Shown here in pieces: positions 9,804-41,449 of a stretch of 64,000 nt of DNA. This DNA is from Exiguobacterium sp. s146. GTDB lineage: Bacteria > Bacillota > Bacilli > Exiguobacteriales > Exiguobacteriaceae. The notes beneath the pieces are model-generated. The model had not been told where the DNA came from. It saw only the letters and a list, made by a program, of their open reading frames with translations, and made no database searches. Numbering within the stretch: position 1 is the stretch's first letter; every line of letters begins with the position of its first letter. The position numbers were made by a program, and so were the translations under genes. The stretch spans positions 1 to 64,000 of the forward strand of contig NZ_JACSMA010000006.1 of assembly GCF_018618415.1 (NCBI RefSeq), read 5' to 3'.

Positions 9804-11642
9804 ATGAGCAAGTGGGTTGAACAATTGAACAGTCGTCAAATTCTCGGCATCCTATATGGAGTCTGTATCGCCAGTCTCTTTTTAACGGCGATCGGCGCAT
9901 GGTTCGTTCGGGACGATAACGTGTCACCGACCGAACTTCTGACATTGCGTTGGATTTGGATGACCGGGCTAGTCATGTTTATCACTGCTATTTTATTAAT
10001 TGGACGTCCTATGATTACACGAATGATCAGTCAAAACGAAAAGATGCATGCAAAGCAAACGGAGATGCAAGCCGTCCTCGAGGCGTCAAAACAAAATGAG
10101 ATAAAACTACAGTACCGGAACGAGTTGATTGAAGTGCTCGCTTCCAAGGAGTCATTACTCGACTATTCGGCCGTCATCGAAAAGATTGTCTGGCTGACCG
10201 AAGCCGAGTTCGGGGCTGTACTGCTCGTCAAAGACAATGAAATCACGTCTGTCGTACCGAAAGGGATGACCGCTGAGCAACAAGAAGATTTGAAAGTACA
10301 GTCGCTCTTGCTCAAGCGCGTGATGATTTCGCGCACGCTTGAGGCGAGTTCGAAAAAGGTGGCCGATCAGCTTCACGGTTACCCGCACTATATCCACGAG
10401 ACGGTCATTCCAGTAAAAGATCCGTCAGACGGGACGATGATGGGTTGCTTGTATTTGGCCTGTTACGATGAACCGTTCGATGCGAGTGAAACATCCGAGT
10501 TGAACGCGTTCGCGAACCAGTTAGCGATTTCACTTTTACGGACGCGACTTTACCGCCAGATGCAACAAGACCGGAAAGAGACGGCACAACTTATCAACTC
10601 GGTGCGCGAAGCGATTCTTTATTTTAACTATGAAGAAGACACGATTGTCGGTAACCGCGCCTTTATCCGCATGTTCGGTGAACTTCAATTCGAATACGCA
10701 GGCTACGAGGAACTGACGACGTTATCGATCGACATCGAACAGTTTGCCGAACGCGTTGACCAACAAGATCTCTTCATCAGTTATATCAAACGCGTCTTCG
10801 ACCAAGAGCCACCGGAAGACGGCTTGTCGATTTCAATGGACCAAGGCGATTGTTTCCTCCAAGTCTATGCCGAGAGTATCTACCGAGATAGGAAGATTCA
10901 CGGCACGATGCTCGTCTTGCGCGACGTGACAGCCGAGACTGAAATCGACCGCATGAAATCAGAACTTGTCTCGACAGTCTCTCACGAATTGAGAACGCCA
11001 CTGTCATCCATCTACGGATTCACAGAGTTGATGCTCGAGCGTGACTTGAAAGAGAGTCGTCGCGAATTGTACTTGAAGACGATTCATGATGAGGCGAAAC
11101 GTCTTTCCTACTTAGTAAACGACTTCCTCGACCTTCAAAAAATGGAGGCTGGAAAGCAGACGTTTGAGTGGGAGACGGTTGATTTGCTCGAACTCGCTCG
11201 TGATAGTCTCAACTTTTATCAAGAGACGACCGACACGCATCACCTATATTTAGATGCTGATGTAGGACAAGACTTTAAAATCGAAGCCGACTTGGAAGGG
11301 ATGCGGCAGTTGCTCGGTAATTTACTCAGCAACGCCATCAAGTATTCACCAGAAGGCGGTAACGTTCTCGTATCACTGGAACGATTGGAAGGTCAAGTCG
11401 TTATGAAAGTCCGGGATAACGGGATGGGAATTCCGTCATCGGCGCTACCGAACTTGTTCGGCAAGTTTTACCGGGTCGACAATTCAGACCGACGTAAAAT
11501 CGGAGGGACAGGGCTTGGTCTCGCCATCTGTAAAGAAATCGCGAAAGCGCATGACGGACATTTACACGTTGAATCGATTTACGGGGAAGGTAGCACATTC
11601 ATCTGCGAATTGCCGATGTCAAAAGAAGCAATTCATCAATGA
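9804..11642 (+). CDS. orphan sensor histidine kinase (GAF-PAS-HisKA-HATPase)
   Basis: 612 residues. Two N-terminal membrane helices (about 12-35 and 48-70), a short coiled coil, a GAF-like domain (about 95-245) and a PAS domain (about 258-375) precede the kinase core. The phosphoacceptor block is STVSHELRTPLSSIYGF near residue 393. The ATP-binding domain shows LLGNLLSNAIKYSPEGG, DNGMGIP and GGTGLGLAICKEIAKAHDG. The loop between the two TMs is short, so sensing is more likely cytoplasmic through GAF/PAS. No response regulator gene adjoins it, so its partner is encoded elsewhere. A clear terminator follows. Confidence 0.92.
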   Translation: MSKWVEQLNSRQILGILYGVCIASLFLTAIGAWFVRDDNVSPTELLTLRWIWMTGLVMFITAILLIGRPMITRMISQNEKMHAKQTEMQAVLEASKQNEIKLQYRNELIEVLASKESLLDYSAVIEKIVWLTEAEFGAVLLVKDNEITSVVPKGMTAEQQEDLKVQSLLLKRVMISRTLEASSKKVADQLHGYPHYIHETVIPVKDPSDGTMMGCLYLACYDEPFDASETSELNAFANQLAISLLRTRLYRQMQQDRKETAQLINSVREAILYFNYEEDTIVGNRAFIRMFGELQFEYAGYEELTTLSIDIEQFAERVDQQDLFISYIKRVFDQEPPEDGLSISMDQGDCFLQVYAESIYRDRKIHGTMLVLRDVTAETEIDRMKSELVSTVSHELRTPLSSIYGFTELMLERDLKESRRELYLKTIHDEAKRLSYLVNDFLDLQKMEAGKQTFEWETVDLLELARDSLNFYQETTDTHHLYLDADVGQDFKIEADLEGMRQLLGNLLSNAIKYSPEGGNVLVSLERLEGQVVMKVRDNGMGIPSSALPNLFGKFYRVDNSDRRKIGGTGLGLAICKEIAKAHDGHLHVESIYGEGSTFICELPMSKEAIHQ

Positions 11643-11674
11643 ACACGACCGGAGTCGTTCCGGTCGTGTTTTTT
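11643..11674 (+). terminator. terminator of the histidine kinase gene
   Basis: ACACGACCGGA loop TTCCGGTCGTGT followed by TTTTTT, directly after the stop codon. Confidence 0.9.
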
Positions 11675-11833
11675 ACGCAGAAGGCTCTATTTTTTGCAGG
11701 AATGTTTTGGCATAATCTAGAAAAAGAGTGAGAAGGTAACGTCGATGCACCCTTCTTATTTTTCTCACAGGCTAATTTCAGAAAAAGAGCTATACTAGTA
11801 AGGAAGAGACAGACAAGATTGGAGGTCATGAAG

Positions 11834-12151
11834 TTGGATCACCGCGACCCACCGTTTTCAGAACTAGGCGACTTTAAACAATGGGGACGTTTTGATATAA
11901 ACGTGCCACTTCAAGGCGGGCAAGCTGAACTACAAGCTGCCGTATCGATTGTTCGACATCATATTCCTTTGCGGTTGGGTGGGTTTTATATCATCGCAAG
12001 TGAGGATGGGATTTTGCGAAGCGGGTCACATGATGCCAATTTGCAAAAACATATCATTCACCTGCTCCAACAAGTTCAAACGGGCCACGTGGAAGACGAA
12101 GCATTGATGAACGAACCGATTTGGACGATTCATTATTTCACCACTCCATAA
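11834..12151 (+). CDS. small soluble protein of unknown function
   Basis: About 105 residues, not recognised. It has acidic and histidine-containing stretches (ATG/TTG-DHRDPPFSELGDF, IVRHHIPLRLGGFYI) and no membrane segment. The start is uncertain. GGAGG lies at 11821-11825: the ATG at 11828 is only 2 nt from it, whereas the TTG at 11834 is at 8 nt, so TTG is preferred. It sits alone between the kinase and the AT-rich quorum-sensing island and ends in its own terminator. Confidence 0.6.
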   Translation: MDHRDPPFSELGDFKQWGRFDINVPLQGGQAELQAAVSIVRHHIPLRLGGFYIIASEDGILRSGSHDANLQKHIIHLLQQVQTGHVEDEALMNEPIWTIHYFTTP

Positions 12152-12156
12152 ATGAC

Positions 12157-12184
12157 AAGAGACGATTCGGGCGTCTCTTTTTTT
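12157..12184 (+). terminator. terminator of the 105-aa gene
   Basis: AAGAGACG loop CGTCTCTT followed by TTTTTT. Its stem resembles the terminator after the pheromone gene (14746). Confidence 0.85.
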
Positions 12185-12189
12185 GTGCA

Positions 12190-12214
12190 AAAAAAGAACG
12201 CCTGTGGAGGCGTT
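12190..12214 (-). terminator. terminator of the HTH-TPR regulator gene
   Basis: Minus strand: AACGCCT loop AGGCGTT, then a run of T; the stem begins within the stop codon. Confidence 0.75.
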
Positions 12215-13475
12215 AATCTGCTTGGGAGCGTATAGATATAACTTTTTCGTAATATTCGGTAGCAAGTTTATATTTACCATTTTCTCTAAGTTCACGCGCC
12301 AGCCAAAGAGCATATTTTTCAATATAAACGTAATCGTCGTAGAGTTCGAAATATTGAACTGCCTTTTTTAACGTGTTAATCAATTTGACTTTATCTTGTT
12401 CTTGATAACAGTTTTTATAGATTTCAAAATGATGATCAAATTCTTCTAAACCTTCTTTATCGCCTTTTAATTCATACCCCTTGTGGAGCCAATTTAATAT
12501 TTCACGTTTATCATTATAATTCGTGTAGCCCTCGATTAAAGACAGTACGCTAAATAGTTTACTTTTAACTTCAATCTTATATTCAAAACTGCGCATAAAG
12601 TACTCGAGTGCTTTTTCTTGGTCTCCGAGAGAAGAATAAACTTCCCCCATATTGTTGTAAAGCATACCATTATAGTTTTTTAAATCTGTTGCACTTATAA
12701 CCTTTACTGCCCGTTGATAGTAGGAAAGCGCTTCTGAGAACCTCTTTCTCCGCTTGTGTGATAACCCAATTAACAAATGACATTCTACAATTCGTTCTAA
12801 ATAAAAGTGATCTTGAAAATAATCAAGACCGATTTTGACATTTTCAATAGCCTGTAAGTAATCTGCACATCTATAATAAAGTCCGCCCATAATATACCGC
12901 ATATCAGCGACTTCCCAGTCAGGAATTCCTGTATTGATCATTTGTTCGTTCAATCGTTCCAAAGCCTCTAAACCTGCTTCTTTTTCATTTGCTTGAAATA
13001 ATTTAAGACATTTTAGCAAGTCATATCTGAGCATGTTATCACGGTCTAACTGATCTTCTATCCACCCGATTTCTGTAAAATATCTACCTTCTCTACCTGG
13101 CATTACGTCAAATCTAGCTAGGACTAGTAATAAACAAATGTATACTTCCTTTGATTGATTCACCACTTGGTTAGAAAGATATTTCTCCACTTCTTTTTGT
13201 TTGTCTATATCTTTCCTAGTTAAAATTGCTTCTTTTAGTAGCCCTTGAATTTCCAATCTCACTTTCTCTATTTGTTCACTTAAGTCATAGTAGAGTGGAA
13301 CATCAATACTTAACCTCTCAAATATCATTTCTAGTACTTCTTCACTAGGAGAAGTTTGATTGTTTTCGATTTTGCTCAAATAAGAAATCGAACAAACTCC
13401 TCTGGCTAGTACCGATTGCTTCATATTCCTACGCATCCGCTCGATTTTTATTAAGTTACCGTAGTTATATTCCAT
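12213..13475 (-). CDS. RRNPP-type quorum-sensing regulator (XRE HTH + TPR)
   Basis: 420 residues. The N-terminal XRE helix-turn-helix spans about residues 5-58 (NLIKIERMRRNMKQSVLARG, SYLSKIENNQTSPSEEVLEM). The rest is helical with recognisable tetratricopeptide repeats, such as YYRCADYLQAIENVKIGLDY, RKRFSEALSYYQRAVKVI and YSSLGDQEKALEYFMRSFEY. This is the architecture of PlcR, NprR, PrgX and related regulators that bind a re-imported peptide pheromone in the TPR groove. The ATG at 13475 is preferred because the HTH begins there; a TTG at 13508 would add 11 residues. It is divergent from the acyltransferase-like gene and the pheromone precursor, so it likely regulates them. The coding sequence is visibly AT-richer than the window average, suggesting transfer. 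Confidence 0.85.
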   Translation of the reverse strand: MEYNYGNLIKIERMRRNMKQSVLARGVCSISYLSKIENNQTSPSEEVLEMIFERLSIDVPLYYDLSEQIEKVRLEIQGLLKEAILTRKDIDKQKEVEKYLSNQVVNQSKEVYICLLLVLARFDVMPGREGRYFTEIGWIEDQLDRDNMLRYDLLKCLKLFQANEKEAGLEALERLNEQMINTGIPDWEVADMRYIMGGLYYRCADYLQAIENVKIGLDYFQDHFYLERIVECHLLIGLSHKRRKRFSEALSYYQRAVKVISATDLKNYNGMLYNNMGEVYSSLGDQEKALEYFMRSFEYKIEVKSKLFSVLSLIEGYTNYNDKREILNWLHKGYELKGDKEGLEEFDHHFEIYKNCYQEQDKVKLINTLKKAVQYFELYDDYVYIEKYALWLARELRENGKYKLATEYYEKVISIRSQAD

Positions 13476-13514
13476 CTTATGCGATAGCCCCTTCGTCCTA
13501 ATATCCAATGGTTT

Positions 13515-13542
13515 TTTATATAATTTTTAGCGGAAGTGCAAG
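13515..13542 (-). promoter_or_regulatory. candidate promoter of the regulator gene
   Basis: Minus strand: CTTGCA, 16-nt spacer, TATAAA, ending about 40 nt before the ATG. Confidence 0.45.
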
Positions 13543-13658
13543 TAATCAGGAAACTTTATCTAGAAATCCATTAAAAAACGTGTTTCTCGGCTCCGATTTT
13601 CCCAATCAACAACAGTTCGATGGGCGTATTATTCATGATAAGATTTAACTATAAACAG

Positions 13659-13680
13659 CTAATAACAATGTGATTATTAG
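13659..13680. promoter_or_regulatory. inverted repeat, candidate pheromone-regulator operator
   Basis: CTAATAA, 8-nt centre, TTATTAG: a perfect 7-bp inverted repeat in the divergent intergenic region, 64 nt before the start of the acyltransferase-like gene. A weak TATAAA lies just before it at 13650 with no good -35, as expected of an activator-dependent promoter. Function is inferred from position. Confidence 0.4.
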
Positions 13681-13744
13681 GTATAAGGAATCAGCTCAAG
13701 TATTTCCAATAAATAATTCATTTATTATGGAGGTGAATACGACA

Positions 13745-14422
13745 ATGGGGAAATTAAATTTTTTGCTCGCTGAAGATTACATTAAACCTAAAATCTATTT
13801 TCAATCTAAACAAACACCTACATTTAATGCATCTTATTCGTACGCTGATCGCAATCAGTTTGAGGGGTTAGAGCATTTGACCCAATTGTTATTTTCATCT
13901 AAAGGATTCATTATTAATGCATTTCAAATCGATTATTATCAAACTTTGCCACAATTAATTGCCAGAACTCTAAAAGAAAATCGTTCTTACAAAAAACTAT
14001 ACATTCTTGGACCTGAACTGTCTCTCTCTATTCTAAAGCGCAGTTCAAAAACCGTCTATGAGAAACACTTTCAAGAATTTGGATATATCAATGTGGAACG
14101 AGAATTTCAAGGAGTTGTTCGCCAATGCTTAGCTTTATTGCAAGAAGGTCATATCTTATATATTCTTCCGGAAGCATCGATTTGCTGGCGACCAGAAACT
14201 TTTCAATCATTAGAGAACCAACTTTCTCCTCTATGTAGCACATTACTCAGTCAAGAAGCACATGTTCCAATCTTATCCTCTTCTACCAAAGAAGGATCTG
14301 ATAAAGTCGTGTTACATGAACCGAATGTACCACAACAATATGTAGGAGATTTGGAGTCACGTGTTTACCAACAATCAGAATCGGTATATAATTTACTAGA
14401 ATCTCCAGTTTCTGACTACTGA
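13745..14422 (+). CDS. acyltransferase-like protein linked to the pheromone gene
   Basis: 225 residues, AT-rich coding sequence. I do not recognise it with certainty. The middle resembles the lysophospholipid acyltransferase fold of the LpxL/HtrB or PlsC kind: VVRQCLALLQEGHILYILPE recalls the 'aLl..G..v.ilPe' strand, and AHVPILSSS recalls the later 'VPIvp' strand. The canonical HxxxxD catalytic pair is not evident; INAFQIDYYQ occupies the equivalent early region, so catalysis is doubtful. There is no signal peptide. The start at 13745 follows GGAGGTG; upstream in-frame codons lie in the promoter region. It precedes the pheromone precursor by 63 nt and is probably co-transcribed, so it may be the regulated output or a processing factor. 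Confidence 0.6.
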   Translation: MGKLNFLLAEDYIKPKIYFQSKQTPTFNASYSYADRNQFEGLEHLTQLLFSSKGFIINAFQIDYYQTLPQLIARTLKENRSYKKLYILGPELSLSILKRSSKTVYEKHFQEFGYINVEREFQGVVRQCLALLQEGHILYILPEASICWRPETFQSLENQLSPLCSTLLSQEAHVPILSSSTKEGSDKVVLHEPNVPQQYVGDLESRVYQQSESVYNLLESPVSDY

Positions 14423-14485
14423 GTATCATCATACTAGGAATTGAAGCTTTCAACACAATATTATTTTTTAACGGAGGGATTCAGC

Positions 14486-14737
14486 ATGAAAAAGATTACA
14501 GGTCTATTATTCATCGTAGCAGCAGTTTTATTACTTGGCAGCTCGATCAAACCAATGGGCGAAGAACTACCACGCCTCGGAAAATTTGATGTACAAATTC
14601 AACCATTCGGCGAAGAACTCCCACGTCTAGGTAAACTTACAGTACCAGTAAAGCAATTTGGTGAAGAATTACCTCGTCTTGGAAAAGTAGAAAGTACAAT
14701 CAAACCGCTTGGCGAAGAACTTCCACGCCTCGGATAA
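14486..14737 (+). CDS. secreted pheromone precursor with four GEELPRLG copies
   Basis: 83 residues. MKKITGLLFIVAAVLLLGSS is a Sec-type signal: positive N-end, hydrophobic core, small residues. Then the octapeptide GEELPRLG occurs four times at residues 25-32, 42-49, 59-66 and 76-83, each exactly 17 residues apart. The last copy ends precisely at the C-terminus, as in PapR, NprX and Phr precursors. Linkers vary (KFDVQIQPF, KLTVPVKQF, KVESTIKPL), each internal copy being followed by K. The four DNA copies differ at synonymous positions, so the peptide is under selection. ATG start with GGAGGG. It lies on the same strand and downstream of the acyltransferase-like gene, and divergent from the HTH-TPR regulator. 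The mature peptide is predicted to be secreted, trimmed, re-imported by an oligopeptide permease and bound by the regulator. Confidence 0.85.
   Translation: MKKITGLLFIVAAVLLLGSSIKPMGEELPRLGKFDVQIQPFGEELPRLGKLTVPVKQFGEELPRLGKVESTIKPLGEELPRLG
14558..14734 (+). repeat. four in-frame 51-nt repeat units of the pheromone gene
   Basis: Four copies of a 24-nt core encoding GEELPRLG, spaced 51 nt. Core third positions differ: for example Leu is CTA, CTC, TTA and CTT in the ELP part, and Gly is GGA, GGT, GGA and GGA at the end. The amino-acid cores are identical. Confidence 0.9.
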
Positions 14738-14745
14738 TTTTTTCG

Positions 14746-14776
14746 AAAGAGACGCCCTCGTGCGTCTCTTTTTTAT
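14746..14776 (+). terminator. terminator of the pheromone gene
   Basis: AAAGAGACGC loop GCGTCTCTTT followed by TTTT. Confidence 0.9.
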
Positions 14777-14933
14777 TTCCGAAACCCTGGAAATAATCCT
14801 ATCGAAAAAAAGTCAAACAATTTACATATTAACCTCCATTTTTTTCTTGTTTCCTTATATAATAACGAAGACATGATGACGATTTCATTTCACAGCTACT
14901 TCACCCAACTATGAATAAAGGAGCGGATCTCGA

Positions 14934-16262
14934 TTGAACCAAACGAAATCATCTTGGAACTTGAAACTGTTGCTTAGCTCTTCCCTTGTCATTGGTGGCA
15001 TGGCCGTCGCCCCATTCGACTTGACGCCGACCGGTTTCGAATCGAGCCGAGTCGAAGCTGCATCTACATACACGACGACCGCTAACTTGAACCTTCGCTT
15101 GAGTGCCGCTACGTGGAGTCCGATCCTCTTGACGATCCCAAACGGGGCGACCGTCAAATATGTCAGCACGTACGGCTCTTGGTATAAAGTCAGCTATGGG
15201 GGCAAGACTGGCTACGTCGCTTCACAATACGTGAAAGTCTCGACTGCCTCGACGATGACGCCGAGCTCAGCCTCATACTATAAAACGACAGTCAATTTGA
15301 ACATGCGCTTAACGGCTGCCTCATGGAGCACGGTTTTGACGACAATCCCGAACGGCGCCACAGTGAAATACGTCAGTCGTTACGGCTCTTGGTATAAAGT
15401 CAGTTATAACGGAAAGACTGGGTACGTCGCTTCGCAATACTTAACTGCTACGGGAGCCCCGACTACGACGACTTCTACCACGTCATACCAAACGACGGTC
15501 AACTTGAACATGCGTTTGACGGCAGCCTCATGGAGTACGGTCTTGATGACCATCCCGAACGGTTCCACTGTTAAGTACGTCAGCAAGTACGGCTCGTGGT
15601 ATAAGGTCAGTTACGGCGGGAAGACGGGCTACGTCGCTTCCGAATACTTGAAGCCAGCCACAACGACGACACCGACGACCTCCACCGGTACAGGCCGGAC
15701 GATTGTCATCGATGCCGGACATGGCGGGAATGACCCCGGTGCTGTGTACGGATCAGTGTACGAAAAAGTTATCGCTTTCGATATCGCCGCACGTCTCGCG
15801 AGTACGCTCTCGAATACATATGGCTATAACGCACGGATGACACGCTCGAACGATGTCTACTTGTCGCTCGCACAACGCGTCGAATTGACAAAATCGTATA
15901 AAGGTAGCGCCTTCGTCAGCATTCATAACAACTCGTCGACGAACACATCTTACCATGGTCATGAAGTTCTCGTCCCGACTGGTGAAAGTTATACGACGAA
16001 CCCATACATCTCGGCCAGCCGCAGTTTAGGCGCCGCCATCAACCGTGAGCTCGGTGTCCGCATCCCAACGATTCGTAACCGTGGCGTGAAATACCAAAAC
16101 GTTTATGTCGTCGGCAAGAACAGCGTTCCATCAACTCTTGTCGAATATGGTTTCATCAGCAACTCGAACGACCGCTCGCACTTGACGAGCACGACATACC
16201 GGCAACGGATGGCAGATGCCACCGCTTCTGGGATTCATCAATTCATGAGCACTTATAAATAA
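14934..16262 (+). CDS. N-acetylmuramoyl-L-alanine amidase with three SH3b domains
   Basis: 442 residues. A signal peptide (about 1-42) is followed by three bacterial SH3 repeats (about 45-100, 120-175, 190-245), each with the pattern LN(L/M)RLxAAxWSxxLxTIPNG and YGSWYKVSYxGKTGYVAS. A zinc amidase_3 domain follows: IVIDAGHGGNDPGAV (zinc His), a Glu in YEKVIAFDIAARL, FVSIHNN (zinc His) and the catalytic Glu in STLVEYGFISN. It cleaves the lactyl-Ala bond of peptidoglycan while SH3b domains bind the wall. The TTG start at 14934 has AAGGAG 10 nt upstream; an ATG at 14911 opens only a tiny reading frame closed by TGA at the same place. The SH3b coding repeats are very similar at DNA level. Confidence 0.93.
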   Translation: MNQTKSSWNLKLLLSSSLVIGGMAVAPFDLTPTGFESSRVEAASTYTTTANLNLRLSAATWSPILLTIPNGATVKYVSTYGSWYKVSYGGKTGYVASQYVKVSTASTMTPSSASYYKTTVNLNMRLTAASWSTVLTTIPNGATVKYVSRYGSWYKVSYNGKTGYVASQYLTATGAPTTTTSTTSYQTTVNLNMRLTAASWSTVLMTIPNGSTVKYVSKYGSWYKVSYGGKTGYVASEYLKPATTTTPTTSTGTGRTIVIDAGHGGNDPGAVYGSVYEKVIAFDIAARLASTLSNTYGYNARMTRSNDVYLSLAQRVELTKSYKGSAFVSIHNNSSTNTSYHGHEVLVPTGESYTTNPYISASRSLGAAINRELGVRIPTIRNRGVKYQNVYVVGKNSVPSTLVEYGFISNSNDRSHLTSTTYRQRMADATASGIHQFMSTYK

Positions 16263-40804: not shown

Positions 40805-41449
40805 TCATTTCACTCTCTTTACAGTCACATACTCTTGCAACAGGAAATTGATTCTATCCTCTTGATAAGATTGCACTTCTTGAGACGCTCCCACATACTC
40901 CTCGTGTTGCGGATGAGACAGATTATTTAAGATGTCTTGAATCATCTGATTTCCAGCCATCCCGCCCACGTCTTCAAATGGCGTCTCCCCTTCCCACTCT
41001 GTCACCATCGGATAAGGATACGGATAATCGTCAATGACTTTCTCAAGCGTTAGTTCGTGTCGCCAGTCATCTCCGTAGTCATACGTATAGTATAGTGTCG
41101 GATTCGATTCGATGACGGCCGGCAACTTCACGTTCTTCATCTGACGAATGGATAATTGCCGATACATCTCATAAATCTGTTGTTAAAATGCTTCTAGTTG
41201 CGGCTTTGATTTAAAGTAAGCTAACCGAGCCTTATACTCTTCGACCTCGTCTGAGGATAAGACGAACCGGAACGTCGGCTTTCGTAAATCATTTTCAAAC
41301 TTTGCCAAGTGGGAGTCGTCCCACAACATGACAATTTGAATCGCGTCATGGAGACGTTTGAAGTTCGTCTCGGCCGGGATGATAAAGCGCCGCCAGACCG
41401 GTGTCGGGCTGTCGAGCAGTTGAATGTGGAACTGATACGCGTTGAACAT
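40805..41449 (-). pseudogene. plasmid pRiA4b ORF-3-like protein gene with in-frame stop
   Basis: A single 215-codon frame interrupted by TAA at 41183-41185 (context TTT TAA CAA, probably CAA to TAA). The first part, YQFHIQLLDSPTPVWRRFII and FKRLHDAIQIVMLWDDSHLA, and the second, YYTYDYGDDWRHELTLEKVI and FEDVGGMAGNQ, together form the complete pRiA4b ORF-3/IS1096-passenger-like family fold. Function of the family is unknown. Both halves are otherwise well preserved, so the lesion is recent, or a sequencing error. Confidence 0.8.

Follow-up and report, generated by a model that had tools for sequence, protein, structure and literature searches.

A probable RRNPP-type peptide quorum-sensing cassette with a repeat precursor and an NprR-like receptor in Exiguobacterium

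Quorum-sensing (QS) systems of the RRNPP type join a receptor of 250-500 aa, with peptide-binding tetratricopeptide repeats (TPRs), to a small secreted propeptide of 10-100 aa. Propeptides with several pheromone copies are already described, including repeated Phr peptides, identical or not (PMC5199041, 2016), RRNPPA propeptides in which one pheromone is repeated identically up to six times (PMC9765709, 2022) and, in a study where the maturation of internal copies was tested, a mention of reports of up to eight (PMC11343458, 2024). The present analysis concerns a window of 64,000 nucleotides (nt), the whole stretch analysed, which opens contig NZ_JACSMA010000006.1 of Exiguobacterium sp. s146 (genome G000, 2.85 Mb in 22 contigs). 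Within it lie a helix-turn-helix (HTH) TPR receptor gene, a middle gene divergent from it and, behind the latter, a precursor gene encoding four copies of the octapeptide GEELPRLG. From the sequences, the three genes probably form an RRNPP-type peptide QS cassette, in which a repeat precursor and an NprR-like receptor diversify into pherotypes and are replaceable as a block.

With NprR-NprX of the Bacillus cereus group the locus shares an HTH-TPR receptor of similar length, fold and profile match, as well as repeat propeptides; it differs in its receptor (17% identity), in a precursor that does not lie directly downstream, in the extra middle gene and, as we take it, in the peptide, GEELPRLG being unlike the NprX sequence. 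The propeptides of NprR that are atypically large are reported to be repeat-bearing in 17 of 17 cases (PMC9765709). The tandem Rap-Phr pheromones (Phr3T, Phr105) likewise have more than one copy per propeptide, namely two, both produced and active (PMC11343458), but these peptides are different ones and Rap carries a three-helix bundle in place of the HTH (PMC3601957). Rap-Phr pairs also diversify and move horizontally; unlike the resident locus of Exiguobacterium, which in G011 is replaced in place, they do so by gaining extra paralogous systems (PMC5199041). A plasmid system of Mesobacillus foraminis (L102) has a homologous receptor (25% identity) and repeated EELPPPLAP and EEFPPPLAP units in its precursor, which there, unlike here, follows the receptor gene immediately and in the same orientation.

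An earlier note on this DNA held that the combination of such a regulator with a repeat-bearing precursor looked undescribed; the precursors already in print (PMC5199041, PMC9765709, PMC11343458) contradict this. Multiple copies are ordinary, and it is the layout, the third gene and the block exchange that are unusual. New to us are an NprR-like system whose precursor stands apart from the receptor, behind a genus-restricted predicted acyltransferase-fold gene, together with its fixed promoter-region element and the exchange of the three genes as a block. Full-text literature on the genus yielded, among the matches listed, no description of this precursor-receptor system; NprR is listed by KEGG annotation in an Exiguobacterium genome, in passages which name no peptide and leave undecided whether it is the same gene (PMC5521131).

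Between the starts of receptor and precursor lie 1011 nt and the middle gene, an arrangement kept at all 18 loci of the genus, so that the direct adjacency of propeptide and receptor genes usual in RRNPP(A) systems is lacking. RRNPP_detector demands such adjacency (PMC10075063), and in the 2022 survey the scan reached 1,000 bases from the receptors (PMC9765709); the distance may explain why Exiguobacterium is named in the main text of neither. Adjacency is not universal in the family, since PrgX pheromones are usually not nearby (PMC9765709), and similar systems may have been missed where the precursor lies outside the adjacency rule of the one and just beyond the 1,000-base window of the other.

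The octapeptide array and its probable receptor

The window precursor carries four exact GEELPRLG copies at a 17-residue spacing, the last forming the C-terminus, as had been claimed. Summed over copy pairs, their DNA shows 26 silent and 0 replacement differences; because only silent sites differ and the array is kept across the precursors of the genus, the copies are not due to chance. Counts refer to 17 complete Exiguobacterium precursors, that of G002 being cut by a contig end. Each holds at least two recognisable copies (four in twelve precursors, five in three, three in one and two in one), spaced by 17 residues in 48 of 51 cases. An export-type start, MK or MR with a hydrophobic stretch, is conserved at 18 loci, one of them cut by a contig end; in the window the 83-aa product is of RRNPP propeptide size and its MKK with hydrophobic stretch, judged by eye, suggests secretion.

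Every copy appears to be under selection. Pooled within precursors, replacement and silent differences (pN and pS) are 0.034 and 0.657 in the copies, silent sites being saturated, versus 0.284 and 0.628 in the spacers, and octapeptide identity is 0.949 among copies of one precursor versus 0.522 for copies of equal index in different species. Conservation marks out a sharp block of eight residues, with identities of 0.86-1.00 inside it, 0.28 just before and 0.84 at the residue after. F, L, M or Y precedes 61 of 68 copies and K follows 45 of 51 internal ones, flanks which suggest a processing pattern.

The recognised copies are all identical in 11 of the 17 precursors, and these arrays represent seven peptide versions: GEELPRLG (G000, G008), GEDFPRLA (G007, G015), GEDLPRLT (G016), ADDFPRLT (G011), ADEMPRIG (G001), VDEMPRIG (G003) and VDDMPRIV (G013, G014, G017). 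Five precursors have one divergent last copy, VDEMPRLT being followed by VDELPRLV in G004 and G005, AEEAPRIT by SEELPRLI in G006 and G018, and AEERPRIV by NESMPRIV in G010; G009 has ADERPRLF and ADELPRLF. Since the last copy is common to G004 and G005 with one silent difference, and to G006 and G018 with five, it may be used as well. The idea of four identical autoinducers per product is borne out insofar as the copies look selected; the boosted signal gain that had been derived from it is still conjecture, given that 6 of the 17 precursors have one or more deviating copies among those recognised.

In the five-copy precursor of G014 (L033) the pattern is the reverse of that in the others, the spacers being identical in DNA but for one base and the octapeptide copies carrying silent differences. 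Gene conversion between copies was considered as the source of their identity and set aside, as G000 and G008 show no clear excess in the repeats, on small numbers (silent divergence: repeats 0.222, receptor 0.167, middle gene 0.156, signal region 0.524, spacers 0.059). Spacer likeness across species is 0.567 at a spacer's own position versus 0.542 at other positions for all four-copy precursors, and 0.702 versus 0.598 in the GE.. group, slight differences which favour neither a renewed expansion of the arrays nor separate change of each copy.

The identification of the neighbouring gene as an HTH-TPR regulator is sound (Pfam HTH_3, E 5.5e-8; TPR_12, E 1.7e-14), and its 420 aa with TPRs fit the RRNPP(A) range. 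Its AlphaFold model (mean predicted local distance difference test score, pLDDT, 84; HTH region low) finds its best fold matches in apo NprR and Rap-Phr complexes, tied at Z about 29.5, the best TPR protein outside RRNPPA reaching Z 22.5. The NprR structure aligns at Z 29.5 with a root-mean-square deviation (rmsd) of 4.6 over 348 residues, and the receptor profile matches NprR at E 2.3e-10, in the half that holds the TPRs. The genus alignment (A1, 17 rows) and alignment A3 (12 rows) have Asn275 without exception; it is aligned with the Asn of the NprR motif SNMG and corresponds by motif to RapF Asn227, described as an RNPP-wide peptide-anchoring residue (PMC3601957). With NprR and Rap as closest characterised kin, covariation with the peptide (below) and copies that look selected, the assignment to RRNPP-type receptors made in the earlier note stands. 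The N-terminal HTH and the NprR-type TPR domain are those of the NprR subfamily, but no pheromone gene lies directly downstream on the same strand, and the receptor is therefore NprR-like, not NprR.

Pairing was analysed in 16 genomes with the commonest octapeptide of each; G004 was left out as its flank genes are missing on a short contig, and G013, absent from A1 owing to internal stops in its receptor, entered the pairing analysis, trees and tree tests as a tblastn segment (90% cover, stops as X). Peptide distance correlates at 0.84 with the distance of the receptor, 0.48 with that of the middle gene and 0.50 with that of a flanking kinase. Given the middle gene, the partial correlation of peptide and receptor is 0.81 (p 0.0002); that of peptide and middle gene given the receptor is -0.30. 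Among the 28 pairs with a kinase distance below 0.13, those with different peptides have a receptor more diverged than the middle gene in 20 of 23 cases (exceptions: G001 with G013, G014 and G017), and those with the same peptide a less diverged one in 4 of 5 (exception: G000/G008, 0.019 versus 0.013).

Exchange, promoter region and distribution of the cassette

By DNA comparison, the three genes are replaced as one block in G011, because identity to the window drops across the cassette only (61-79% over 12200-14800, versus 95-98% in the adjoining segments and 98% again after) and the edges fall no more than about ten bases away from the stop codons of receptor and precursor. Flanks further out are 81-97% identical, and G008 is 90-98% identical throughout the cassette. 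This exchange had been overlooked in the earlier note.

The flank tree (17 genomes, G004 out) groups G000, G008 and G011 (97/98), a clade which receptor and middle-gene data reject (p-AU, approximately unbiased test, 0.005 and 0.009); the cassette grouping of G000, G007, G008, G015 and G016 is not rejected by flank data (p 0.144). Two other flank clades, G001/2/3/10/13/14/17 and G005/9/18, are likewise rejected by receptor data, and two receptor clades, G006/10/18 and G001/2/3/4/5/13/14/17, by flank data. The middle gene agrees with the flanks on clade G001/2/3/10/13/14/17 and rejects both receptor clades; therefore, receptor and peptide style parted from the intervening middle gene in those lineages. 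The receptor, cassette and flank clades tested were named after the trees were seen, the flank clades coming from other genes.

Between the divergent genes a promoter-region element, TTTCCCAA followed after exactly 30 nt by TGATA or, in G011, TGTTA, is conserved at all 18 loci (Table 1). We infer a candidate activator site in TTTCCCAA-N30-TGATA, because no plus-strand promoter appears at this place in the sigma-70 scan. Searched as TTTCCCAA-N29..31-TGATA, the pattern is rare outside the cassette: of its 24 matches, spread over 17 of the 19 Exiguobacterium genomes, 17 fall on the cassette and 7 on other sites (four in G002), and the reversed-pattern control has 3; G011 is uncounted at the cassette for its TGTTA, and G012 is without a match.

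The receptor occurs in 18 of 19 Exiguobacterium genomes and the middle gene in the same 18, G012 lacking both. The middle gene was found in 0 of 19 sister-genus genomes and in 18 of 398 genomes of the class, all Exiguobacterium, and a pattern-based scan of 84,980 species met the protein at 14 loci, all in Exiguobacterium records. Gene order is constant at 18 of 18 loci, with the receptor divergent from the middle gene and the precursor next (cut by a contig end in G002). No precursor without an HTH-TPR neighbour was met at these loci, precursors having been sought only beside receptors, not genome-wide, and the receptor of G013 containing stops. Matches to the kinase and amidase that flank the cassette, in G012 and in three genomes of the sister genus, did not place an empty site; for the kinase, the best one in G012 is 44% identical and one of many kinases.

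The middle protein has no Pfam match at E 1. Its AlphaFold model (mean pLDDT 76.5, residues 1-24 below 50) resembles lysophospholipid acyltransferases, with PatA at Z 12.3 (rmsd 3.6, 160 aligned), LpxM at Z 10.3 and PlsC at Z 9.8; Foldseek gives PatA at E 1.7e-4, with a TM-score of 0.49. The catalytic His of acyltransferases sits in an HX4D/E motif. By eye, residues 55-66 contain no His in any of 18 aligned rows (A2), and Asn58 (Ser in G010) is followed, after four residues, by an invariant Asp63; LPEA or LPET at 141-144 looks to us like the acyltransferase PEG motif, again by eye. The product is probably a catalytically altered protein of acyltransferase fold, which may be the output of the circuit or a helper.

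Proposed mechanism and rival explanations

In the mechanism we favour, the precursor would leave the cell and be cleaved to release the same octapeptide several times over, the cut context being a bulky hydrophobic residue ahead of each copy and usually Lys behind internal ones. The octapeptide would be re-imported through an oligopeptide permease and bind the TPR groove of the NprR-like regulator, which would act at the divergent promoter region (TTTCCCAA-N30-TGATA) and drive the middle gene and the precursor, closing a positive loop. Receptor and peptide would co-diversify into pherotypes, and the three-gene block could be replaced by recombination. The source genome has five genes of the peptide-binding family SBP_bac_5.

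Several observations weigh against this mechanism. The G013 receptor has internal stops, from pseudogenisation or sequencing error, beside an intact five-copy precursor (L032), and the array of G009 is decayed. The search for TTTCCCAA-N29..31-TGATA in 19 genomes of the genus assigned no promoter beyond the locus to a regulon. Covariation is broad along the receptor, with partial correlations of 0.48-0.49 in HTH windows and 0.36-0.73 in the others; peptide and middle gene, given the kinase, are weakly correlated too (0.18, p 0.007), and the label permutation used ignores phylogeny. In 45 of 60 relatives outside the genus (two of the 45, L126 and L164, being doubtful), a secreted-like open reading frame (ORF) starts at most 60 nt from the receptor stop, unlike in Exiguobacterium, and a simple [DE]x(0,2)P motif is not enriched in these ORFs (35 of 45, versus 32.6 +/- 2.4 in shuffles).

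These relatives were taken, nearly by E-value, from listed receptor matches, some listed and unlisted places being skipped; a receptor match at E 1e-20 or better occurs in 110 of 398 genomes of the class, 18 of them Exiguobacterium. Exact internal repeats of at least 5 aa, with up to nine copies, stand in 13 of the 45 adjacent ORFs (L164 included), so that such arrays are commonplace among receptors of this group. Four plasmid receptors (22-25% identity) are also followed immediately by a small ORF in the same orientation. A second look, taken after the negative motif test, used a model of the octapeptide motif: 14 of 47 receptor-adjacent precursors match at p<0.05 by tail shuffling, 2.4 being expected (binomial p 4e-8), with VDDLPPIT and YDEMPKLT among the matches. 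The 47 include near-identical precursors (e.g. L133 and L134) and the four plasmid ones, L126 and L164 being dropped.

It is unlikely that the C-terminal copy alone is the active pheromone and the internal ones are duplication leftovers or a carrier. Most QS propeptides do bear the pheromone at the C-terminus (PMC9765709) and the differing copy is the C-terminal one in G004, G005, G006, G018 and G010; yet in 11 of 17 precursors the recognised copies show no replacement difference although silent sites and spacers have diverged, and internal copies also change between species. The neighbouring HTH-TPR gene could instead be a bystander, the repeats signalling to another main receptor, as the precursor does not adjoin the regulator and the genome holds one further, N-terminal-only receptor-profile match. 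The receptor-specific covariation with the peptide, the octapeptide motif common to receptor-adjacent precursors of relatives and the joint replacement of receptor and precursor in G011 make this very unlikely.

We hold it highly improbable that the locus encodes a peptide secreted as an antimicrobial or for self-recognition, alongside a regulator and an immunity gene, its allele swaps reflecting warfare. Such loci are generally known for block exchange and fast diversification as well, but here the peptide follows the regulator, not the middle gene, and its style is common to precursors beside related receptors; moreover, the 83-aa protein has no match in Pfam or NCBIfam better than E 0.15, which is weak evidence. 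An extension of the favoured QS mechanism is entertained with considerable doubt: the pherotype cassette would have three working parts, the middle protein, its usual His lost, being a component of the circuit; specificity would change in all copies of an array together with the receptor, partly by recombination, and the conserved divergent C-terminal copy would be a second signal in some lineages. The middle protein may then act at the membrane in export, processing or import of the octapeptide, or be the circuit output.

Duplicated pheromone copies have been proposed as an intermediate in specificity switching (PMC5199041, 2016). Exiguobacterium offers a natural series at one locus, with 11 uniform arrays, five with a divergent last copy and one whole-block replacement, in which one can test whether receptor or copies changed first and signal switching becomes easy to study.

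Feature positions and further observations

The coordinates and orientations given in the earlier note, with the regulator divergent from two plus-strand genes, are correct throughout; the separation of the precursor from its receptor by a third gene had escaped it.

Table 1. Features of the cassette, in window positions
Feature	Position	Strand	Remark
Terminator-like hairpin GAGACG...CGTCTC with T-run	12157..12179	+	left cassette edge
HTH-TPR receptor	12213..13475	-	420 aa, NprR-like RRNPP; ATG at 13475, stop at 12213
GGAAA, candidate inverted partner	13549..13553	+	43-45 nt upstream of TTTCCCAA; 16/18 loci
TTTCCCAA, candidate operator half	13598..13605	+	18/18 loci
TGATA (TGTTA in G011), candidate extended -10	13636..13640	+	exactly 30 nt past TTTCCCAA; 18/18 loci
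Middle gene	13745..14422	+	225 aa, predicted lysophospholipid-acyltransferase-like fold
Pheromone precursor gene	14486..14737	+	83 aa
N-terminal export-type region	14486..14557	+	residues 1-24; MK/MR with hydrophobic stretch
Octapeptide copy 1, GEELPRLG	14558..14581	+	residues 25-32
Octapeptide copy 2, GEELPRLG	14609..14632	+	residues 42-49
Octapeptide copy 3, GEELPRLG	14660..14683	+	residues 59-66
Octapeptide copy 4, GEELPRLG	14711..14734	+	residues 76-83, C-terminal
Terminator-like hairpin GAGACG...CGTCTC with T-run	14745..14772	+	right cassette edge

Besides the edge matches to GAGACG...CGTCTC at 12159 and 14749, a third lies in the window at 41351, without a T-run, and an Rfam scan of 11600-15100 gave nothing at the gathering threshold. 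A phage origin of the receptor was dismissed, as 50,697 phage records hold nothing that matches it at E 1e-5. Spo0F binding is a trait of the NprR subfamily. The source genome has a Spo0A C-terminal domain match above cut-off (G000:C1:996302-996595, E 5.7e-30), and Exiguobacterium is described as non-spore-forming (PMC5521131).

A second receptor-profile match in the source genome (G000:C13:121412-121696) covers the first ~100 residues only, in an ORF of 408 aa; such N-terminal-only matches, in ORFs of 397-424 aa, occur in 16 of the 19 Exiguobacterium genomes, among them G012. Elsewhere in the class, precursors with 7-9 peptide repeats adjoin NprR-like receptors at L127 (G390), L144 (G243), L141 (G161) and L154 (G306). 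Sister-genus genomes hold clusters of ~300-aa HTH ORFs, possibly PlcR- or Rgg-like (G028:C14:1064077-1068256; G036:C7:625942-630023; G019:C1:1869418-1874360). Downstream of the cassette, at 14934-16262, the window encodes a 442-aa secreted-type protein with internal repeats, variable between species, which by eye looks like an SH3/amidase-like cell-wall enzyme.

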